A stretch of DNA of 64,000 bases from Clostridia bacterium (GTDB taxonomy: Bacteria; Bacillota; Clostridia; Christensenellales; Borkfalkiaceae): positions 1-64,000 of the forward strand of contig JAFTPK010000010.1 of NCBI GenBank assembly GCA_017463325.1, given 5' to 3'. A program made the position numbers and the translations under genes. Shown here piece by piece: positions 14,124-15,235 of the stretch (within the stretch, counting starts at the first letter, position 1; each line of letters opens with the position of its first letter). Below the pieces are notes generated by a model, which ran no database searches, had not been told where the DNA came from, and saw only the letters and a program-made list of their open reading frames with translations.

Positions 14124-14344
14124 AATTTTTTTCTCCGTAAAAAAGATTTTTTTTACTTTATTATTATAGCAAACTTTTTTTTATATGGCAAGCGTTGAAA
14201 GAAAAATTTTTGTAAAAAAAATTCAGGCGGGCATTACCGTTTGTTTTTTGCTTTGTCGGACGACAAAATTTCTTTATTTTAAAGGGTTTTTAGATTTCTG
14301 CAAAAAAAATTTTAAAAAAAATCAAAAAATTTTTCAAAAACCCC

Positions 14345-14372
14345 TTGACAAATAAAAATTTCGTGCTATAAT
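14345..14372 (+). promoter_or_regulatory. Promoter of the long structured RNA
   Basis: TTGACA (14345-14350), 16-nt spacer, extended TGC-TATAAT (14364-14372). Predicted start about 14379. Confidence 0.8.
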
Positions 14373-14534
14373 AAAGGTACAAAAAGGAAAGGAAGTCACA
14401 AAAAGTGTGAAAAGTTTTCATTTTTCACAAAGATAGTAGCGGAGAGAGGTTCTCCGACGGGTAACCGAGTAGGCCAAGGGGCCGACGCCGTAGGGATGCG
14501 GCAAAAATTCAAGGAAAGGAGGGTACGAAAAGAG

Positions 14535-14567
14535 ATGATTCCTTCCCACGAAGAGGCGAAAGCCTAA
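14535..14567 (+). CDS. Very short ORF in the long RNA (MIPSHEEAKA)
   Basis: Ten codons from ATG 14535, with AAGGAGG at 14516-14522, a rather long 12-nt spacing. Listed with low confidence because the three downstream short ORFs have better-placed ribosome binding sites. Confidence 0.25.
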   Translation: MIPSHEEAKA

Positions 14568-14769
14568 AAGGTAGGAGTTAAAACGAATTTTCAGAACGGG
14601 ACAAATGGGAGGTTGACGAATTTCCGGTAGGTACTCGGCAGCCGAAGGGCGGAAAGGAGTTTTAACAGGCACGAAAAAGGAGGGTGCTCGGCGGGGCGTC
14701 TAAGAGTTTCGGAAACCGAGGAGAGCGGCCGCGGAAAAACCGCTTAAATAAAAGCGAAGGAGGCGTAGT

Positions 14770-14814
14770 ATGAAAGCCGTAACTTCGAGAAGAGGGGAAA
14801 CCAGAGCAGGCTAA
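14770..14814 (+). CDS. 14-codon ORF 1 in the long RNA (MKAVTSRRGETRAG)
   Basis: ATG 14770 follows AAGGAGG (14757-14763) by 6 nt. The last eight residues RRGETRAG are shared with ORF 2, and codon differences in that segment are synonymous (AGA/CGC, GCA/GCG, stops TAA/TGA). The stop falls in the loop of the GGCT/AGCC hairpin. A basic short peptide, or a leader peptide coupling translation to RNA folding, are both possible. Confidence 0.45.
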   Translation: MKAVTSRRGETRAG

Positions 14815-14867
14815 GTTAGCCCGAGTAGAAAGCTCGGGAAAACAGAAAAGAAAAGGAGGATAAGCAA

Positions 14868-14912
14868 ATGATGCAAAAAACTCCAAGAAGAGGGGAAACC
14901 CGCGCGGGCTGA
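14868..14912 (+). CDS. 14-codon ORF 2 in the long RNA (MMQKTPRRGETRAG)
   Basis: ATG 14868 lies 8 nt after AAGGAGG (14853-14859). It lies 98 nt downstream of ORF 1, with the same length and the same C-terminus RRGETRAG. The stop TGA again falls in the hairpin loop. Confidence 0.45.
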   Translation: MMQKTPRRGETRAG

Positions 14913-14970
14913 GTTAGCCCGACGGAAAAGTCGGGAAAACGGTCCAAAAAAATCCAAGGAGGTACGGGAA

Positions 14971-15015
14971 ATGGTAAAATTCAGAGTATCTCAAAGGTAT
15001 TCAATCAAGAAATAA
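14971..15015 (+). CDS. 14-codon ORF 3 in the long RNA (MVKFRVSQRYSIKK)
   Basis: ATG 14971 lies 8 nt after AAGGAGG (14956-14962) and 103 nt downstream of ORF 2. It has exactly the same length but an unrelated, also basic, sequence and no RRGETRAG. A fourth possible ORF of 11 codons (MHNEIAEQNVG, 15034-15069) follows with only a weak GAGG. Confidence 0.35.
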   Translation: MVKFRVSQRYSIKK

Positions 15016-15195
15016 CAAAGTGAGGGCAGACCAATGCACAACGAAATCGCGGAGCAGAACGTCGGCTAAAAACCGTGGAAAGAAAGAGCGGTAACGAAAA
15101 CGTCGTACCGCAAGGAGAATTTCCAAAATAAAAACACGGATACGGCTGACAGAGGAAAAGCTCCCTAAAAAACGACAATTGAATAAGAAAAAGAT

Positions 15196-15235
15196 ACGCC
15201 CCTCGGAACGTAGAGGGGCGTTAGTTTTTATTTTT
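15196..15235 (+). terminator. Terminator of the long RNA
   Basis: ACGCCCCTC-GGAACGTA-GAGGGGCGT followed by a T-rich tract that runs into the stop codon of the convergent gene at 15228. Confidence 0.85.

Follow-up and report, generated by a model that had tools for sequence, protein, structure and literature searches.

The window analysed here, a 64,000-nt stretch of DNA, carries on its plus strand (14345–15229) a unit formed by a promoter, a well-folding RNA and an intrinsic terminator. The unit is conserved among relatives, contains an array of micro-ORFs opened by Shine–Dalgarno (SD) sequences, and forms covarying helices that keep a set register. It appears to represent a previously undescribed RNA family of gut bacteria; no known RNA family seems to combine such a fold with a row of SD-preceded micro-ORFs. 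In annotation this well-conserved RNA of one bacterial family is seen as empty DNA: gene finders pass over units this short, and Rfam has no entry for it.

The transcription unit and its parts

As the preliminary description had proposed, a region without a normal gene is bounded here by a promoter and a terminator of its own, enclosing about 850 nt; an ORF scan found no ORF of ordinary size through the plus strand of the unit. The claim that the RNA is structured also holds: the 857-nt RNA folds at -258.9 kcal/mol compared with -206.0 kcal/mol (sd 7.4) for shuffles (z -7.15), and helices covary in relatives. The neighbouring genes, purC, a TMEM164/YwaF-like membrane protein and a class II tRNA synthetase (which we take to be glycyl-tRNA synthetase), all lie on the opposite strand. 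A strong promoter-like site on the minus strand (window 14163–14191, TTGCCA-17-TATAAT) leads into purC, divergent from the RNA promoter. The parts of the window copy, from 5' to 3', are these:

14345–14372, plus strand: promoter, with -35 TTGACA, a 16-nt spacer and TGC plus TATAAT (extended -10); 12 of 12 positions match
14387–14419, plus strand: 5' leader hairpin, from a consensus fold built on 29 copies; both sides of the stem vary while the stem is retained
14444–14464, plus strand: remnant of ORF A (2–5 codons in relatives), start here ACG; aligned relatives have CCRATG and then a stop, the window copy CCGACG
14472–14502, plus strand: two covarying hairpins (GGCC/GGCC; GCCGTAGGGATGCGGC); 8 pairs changed on both sides, 0 of 500 shuffles
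14511–14567, plus strand: SD and ORF B (14535–14567; MIPSHEEAKA-stop), the most conserved block in the genus
14568–14753, plus strand: structured middle region, variable and missing from some of the copies
14754–14814, plus strand: SD and ORF C copy 1, an SD-preceded frame (14770–14814; MKAVTSRRGETRAG-stop)
14820–14838, plus strand: hairpin behind C copy 1 (CCCGAG/CTCGGG)
14851–14912, plus strand: SD and ORF C copy 2 (14868–14912; MMQKTPRRGETRAG-stop), a tandem duplicate 98 nt downstream of copy 1
14918–14935, plus strand: hairpin following C copy 2, CCCGAC/GTCGGG, a compensatory counterpart to that of copy 1
14954–15015, plus strand: SD and ORF D (14971–15015; MVKFRVSQRYSIKK-stop), found in copies of five genera (g1, g2, g4, g5, g9); synonymous excess z 2.0
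15020–15069, plus strand: SD and ORF E (15034–15069; MHNEIAEQNVG-stop)
15051–15055, plus strand: GGAGC, the 5' arm of the long-range helix, lying 18 nt past the A of the AUG of E; register from relatives, read by eye here
15160–15164, plus strand: 3' arm of the long-range helix, GCTCC; register from relatives, by eye; displaced from the tail in this copy and so outside the register of the scan
15175–15185, plus strand: conserved tail ACAATTGAATA (ACAACTGAATA in most relatives), the near-invariant end of the alignment, also present in other genera
15196–15229, plus strand: intrinsic terminator, with 9 pairs at 15196–15221 followed by a T-run

The window copy is atypical in that the start of ORF A is lost and ORF C is duplicated. 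Its middle region holds a GTG-initiated ORF (14684–14773, 29 aa) that is not seen in other copies. The SD of ORF B (AGGAG, 14517–14521) can pair with UUCCU inside the same ORF (14539–14543); this helix, helix 3, is intact in 23 of 23 copies and almost invariant, so that covariation says little about it. The two modules reported earlier, 98 nt apart at 14770 and 14868, are confirmed: both have AGAAGAGGGGAAACC and GGCT/AGCC, and then CCCGAG..CTCGGG in one and CCCGAC..GTCGGG in the other. What had been overlooked is that AGAAGAGGGGAAACC, the 15-mer shared by both, lies in frame within the two copies of ORF C, each of which has 14 codons, ends in RRGETRAG-stop and starts 6–8 nt behind AAGGAGG. The compensatory change had been read as showing that pairing is selected; two copies in one genome are thin evidence for this when taken alone, but covariation across relatives supports the same conclusion.

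Distribution and genomic setting

The conservation in relatives is extensive within the genus: BLAST located the element in 44 of its 57 genomes, and a covariance model of 133 positions in 49 of them. Nearly all same-genus copies examined share the perfect promoter, including its spacer and TGN, and have a terminator 430–910 nt further on. Copies outside the genus were found by a pattern combining promoter and leader, in records under the titles Borkfalkia, Gallimonas, Coproplasma and uncultured Clostridia. When the order was sampled evenly, the exact pattern matched 12 of the 34 genomes from the family of the window and 0 of 362 from other families. At two mismatches the pattern reached 18 of 18 genera, a figure inflated by chance promoters; after a sample of the hits was read, real copies remained in six genera, namely g1 (the genus of the window), g2, g4, g5, g9 and g10, all in one family, the Borkfalkia group. 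Weak R1 matches outside the genus (in g2, g4, g5 and g15) came without promoter and leader and were rejected as false. Judged by record titles, the family is Borkfalkiaceae of GTDB; NCBI taxonomy places Borkfalkia under Christensenellaceae.

A mobile or phage element was rejected as an explanation, as the phage records and viral contigs searched held no match to the element, there is usually one copy per genome, and neighbourhoods are shared. An ordinary gene or pseudogene was likewise rejected: a long frame is absent, and relatives are equally short. Searched against Rfam, the unit had no match at the gathering score and, with E allowed up to 10, nothing above chance level; relatives searched at gathering and permissive thresholds gave no family either.

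The interval between purC and ywaF, which had been suggested as the setting in which to compare relatives, is not ancestral. Most g1 copies sit behind maf and mreB, and in several other genera the element lies beside spore genes: the germination genes gerAB/gerAC precede copies in g2, g5 and g9, as well as in one g1 genome (G055), and spoIIE adjoins some copies in g5 and g10. Spo0A is present in most well-sampled genomes of the genus. The genes downstream of the unit differ in identity and strand between copies. These neighbourhoods suggest that the loci share an ancestor, and perhaps that the RNA is tied to a spore-forming life style.

Micro-ORFs, covarying helices and selection on the peptides

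The RNA carries three to six micro-ORFs of 2–20 codons, and their order is the same in most of the six genera. Behind the perfect promoter comes the leader AGGTACAAAAR and then a hairpin; in most genera there follows ORF A, with 2–5 codons (MN, MHK, MKDK or MKFK, each before a stop) and a hairpin close behind it, most of these hairpins beginning at about +14 to +20. ORF D (about 10–18 codons) is followed by ORF E (about 8–14 codons), whose start lies within CCRATG near or overlapping the end of D, and the RNA closes with a folded 3' domain, the tail and the terminator. In most relatives the stop of D falls between -18 and +4 of the start of E, a position that would be fit for coupling. Copies of g1 often have in addition ORF B, the variable middle region and ORF C. 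The most divergent copies, those of g10, read by eye, have repeated three-codon ORFs (MKA, MIA, MFA and MTA, each before a stop) in hairpin loops that SD:anti-SD pairing closes, and lack a clear ORF D. In two g10 elements (L278, L279) a single anti-SD stretch lies behind each three-codon ORF, from where it could pair either with the SD upstream or with a further GGAGG downstream, a layout suggestive of two SDs in competition for the same partner.

The array is far denser than chance would provide. GGAGG and ATG stand at the right distance 1.93 times in an average copy and 0.08 times in an average dinucleotide shuffle (24-fold, 74 copies). This ratio is somewhat favoured for E, as copies were partly selected for that ORF; the presence of A, B, C or D was no condition. 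The AUG mostly lies 6–12 nt behind GGAGG, and at least one such pair is found in 96% of copies. The encoded peptides, on the other hand, differ almost wholly between genera. In nearest-neighbour comparisons within the genus, ORF C has 15 synonymous single changes where 8.2 are expected (z 2.95) and ORF D 26 where 18.9 are expected (z 2.0); the same test gave nothing clear for ORF E (z 1.4) or ORF B (z -0.8). These z values are approximate, a few ORFs being misassigned in the automatic grouping. This partial excess points to a role of peptides C and D in their own right; overall the signal is modest, with frames retained and amino acids retained weakly, except perhaps in C and D. In one relative (L032) a merged B–D ORF is still open.

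Covariation supports pairing at both ends of the RNA. Of 18 pairs in the 5' part, 10 are changed on both sides, more than in any of 500 shuffles, and the signal is lost when the helices are slid. At the other end, a segment inside ORF E (codons 6–9) pairs with the 7–10 nt before the tail, the arms of this long-range helix being usually 115–140 nt apart and up to about 470 nt apart in some copies. The mean pairing score is 16.2 for the real copies; exchanging tails among them lowers it to 10.3 (sd 0.35; no more than 11.3 in any of 200 rounds). The 74 copies use 66 distinct stems: the sequence turns over and the pairing stays. With the register left unconstrained, 82% of the best stems begin within +16 to +19, counted from the A of the AUG of E, compared with 28% for swapped tails. 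An initiating ribosome has its front edge, the toeprint position, at this same place; the fixed register could instead reflect the architecture of the RNA. Consensus folding over a MAFFT alignment yielded no pairs in the 3' domain, because the alignment slid; the register-anchored comparison recovered the helix. The window copy scored low in the helix scan because its 3' arm is further from the tail than usual. Between tail and terminator no obvious competing structure was seen, and the complement of the tail, considered as a target in trans, occurs at unrelated sites, with no conserved site elsewhere.

Possible function and relation to known RNAs

We tentatively favour, as a real possibility, a stand-alone RNA in which ribosomes on the micro-ORFs open or close the 3' domain. 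A strongly transcribed RNA of 350–900 nt would be folded and translated at the same time, and several efficient ribosome-binding sites, each opening a micro-ORF of 2–20 codons, would bring ribosomes to defined positions in the fold. On initiating ORF E, a ribosome would stand directly before the E-to-tail helix, and elongation through E would open this helix and free the 3' domain, so that the state of initiation and elongation would determine the shape, stability or binding of that domain. Such a mechanism would resemble leader-peptide attenuators, but without a downstream gene. Ribosomes acting as regulators of the fold would be the most economical way to explain an anatomy that seems to call for several set points of translation initiation with no conserved proteins as products. 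That the unit is transcribed, its ORFs translated, the helix gated by ribosomes and the RNA active in trans is what we infer from the sequence. A bolder and rather doubtful form of the idea is a stand-alone RNA machine with initiating ribosomes as working parts: ribosomes would load at several fixed stations, helices would lie directly against their leading edge, and the 3' domain would report the translation state of the cell in trans; it would be the first of its kind. If ribosomes on frames of 2–20 codons do belong to the fold, RNA would have a new way to read translation and the line between messenger and noncoding RNA would blur. The system is directly testable, with natural covariation and the natural loss of single ORFs as guides.

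Other explanations have to be weighed against these data. A polycistronic messenger of functional micropeptides (signals, stress or antimicrobial peptides), in which the folds serve expression and stability, would account for the retention of SD, start codon, frame and stop, for the synonymous excess in C and D and for the open merged ORF of L032; we consider it rather improbable, as ORFs of 2–4 codons are unlikely to yield useful proteins, the peptides are almost wholly different between genera, B and E lack clear amino-acid constraint, and the sequence of E tracks base pairing. The opposite extreme, a purely structured noncoding RNA in which untranslated SD and AUG look-alikes are structural or protein-binding motifs, is unlikely: it agrees with the strong covariation, the folding z and the ability of GGAGG to pair with anti-SD stretches, but the SD spacing, the AUG, the early in-frame stop and the order of the ORFs are found again across genera despite sequence change, and nearly every copy has a GGAGG-AUG pair.

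An abundant RNA could also act as a sink for ribosomes or initiation factors, titrating 30S subunits by perfect SDs and short frames and so slowing translation, for example at entry into sporulation. The perfect promoter, the several SDs per molecule, the minigenes of 2–4 codons, Spo0A in the genus and the adjoining spore genes in several genera are in keeping with this; such a sink would have no need of a covarying long-range helix and a conserved tail, the housekeeping-type promoter speaks against use in stationary phase, and the neighbourhood varies between genera, and the idea is decidedly unlikely. A decoy of the CsrB/RsmZ type, soaking up CsrA through the many GGA motifs (some of them in loops), is to be regarded as refuted unless an unrelated GGA-binding protein exists: CsrA (PF02599) is absent from 20 of 20 genomes, by a search that detects the protein in its controls, B. 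subtilis and E. coli. It is very improbable, too, that the RNA is a counterpart of raiA (ModT), a different molecule doing the same transition-phase job in the family of the window. Both are highly structured clostridial RNAs with a possible spore link, ModT affecting sporulation (PMC11706538), and their distribution in the order is complementary, with raiA (RF03072) scoring above cut-off in many other families (110 of 362 genomes) and in none of the 34 genomes sampled from the family of the window; many other families of the order, however, also lack raiA, the unit does not match raiA in sequence or structure even at E 10, and the raiA copies of the order lack SD/micro-ORF features and have nothing obvious in common with the window RNA in sequence.

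Other comparisons leave the RNA apart from known classes. A tmRNA (RF00023) also unites structure and a short ORF in one RNA, but the unit gave no match and a separate tmRNA is encoded elsewhere in G000 and five relatives. In G000 the main tmRNA lies at C24:100709-101075, and a second tmRNA-like match was noted at C24:226078-226395 (57.7 bits, cut-off 47). The 6S RNA (RF00013) is found elsewhere in 6 of 6 genomes tested. A type I toxin-antitoxin system was rejected on the peptides, which are short and mostly charged, where such a system has a short hydrophobic membrane peptide and an antisense RNA. ROOL and GOLLD are carried by phages or prophages, often near tRNA islands, and ROOL, GOLLD and OLE form homo-oligomeric RNA complexes. 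The preliminary description had likened the unit in size and ornateness to these three (PMC12286853), which are similarly large, ornate, strongly structured and mostly without an assigned function. A non-coding RNA of their kind is not supported: their covariance models do not match at the gathering score or at E up to 10, the phage collections searched hold no match, the single tRNA hit in the window is weak and 14 kb off, and the window RNA has an array of SD-preceded micro-ORFs that is kept across genera, the supposed module itself being coding sequence.

Among RNAs that combine structure and translation, the dual-function sRNAs RNAIII of S. aureus, SR1 and SgrS typically have one ORF with a conserved peptide. 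As judged from sequence, the window RNA has the promoter, terminator and structure expected of such molecules, with strong SD/ORF conservation and weak to moderate amino-acid constraint. It shares with dual-function sRNAs and sRNA ORFs (PMC5521070) the stand-alone promoter and terminator and a structured RNA with a short ORF, and departs from them in its three to six micro-ORFs, the low peptide conservation and ORFs built into the fold. In leader-peptide or uORF switches, such as toiL of topAI (PMC12121999), the position of a ribosome on a short ORF alters RNA pairing, as may happen here, but those switches lie upstream of the gene they control; a leader-peptide attenuator was rejected for the present family, in which nearly all same-genus copies have their own terminator and no downstream gene is shared. 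Two-codon minigenes, e.g. that of axe-txe (PMC8708949), are similar in acting in cis through translation; the axe-txe minigene is within an operon leader, unlike the recurring ORFs of this stand-alone RNA. Open full texts contained no paper joining Borkfalkia with noncoding RNA, an absence that, like the one from Rfam, does not prove that the RNA has gone unseen.

Three further RNAs were met. Borkfalkia-like genomes (g2) have a second RNA of at least about 430 nt, around position 1501, with a near-perfect promoter of the same type, leader GTACAAAC/A and inner TCTGCAGACG..CCGTAAGG, and without an SD-ORF array (L235, L236, L241–L243, L245, L246, L248–L250, L253, L255–L258, L260, L261, L263, L264); L235, L241 and L243 had no Rfam match. 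An RNA of about 400 nt in Clostridium/Lachnospiraceae (L107, L157, L160) has a perfect promoter and a conserved GGAAAAGGAGGTACGGTCC, and no Rfam family matched it at the gathering score (all three loci) or at permissive thresholds (L160). In Ruminococcaceae, an RNA with the same promoter type (GATACAAAAGGGCGCTGTTGATTTGACGG; L118, L124, L127, L128, L130, L142, L146, L151, L161, L179, L182) runs towards an SD-preceded 28-aa hydrophobic ORF on the opposite strand (MDKRRILRFVLCLIVIVMI..., by eye in L118), and the two together look like a type I toxin-antitoxin pair.
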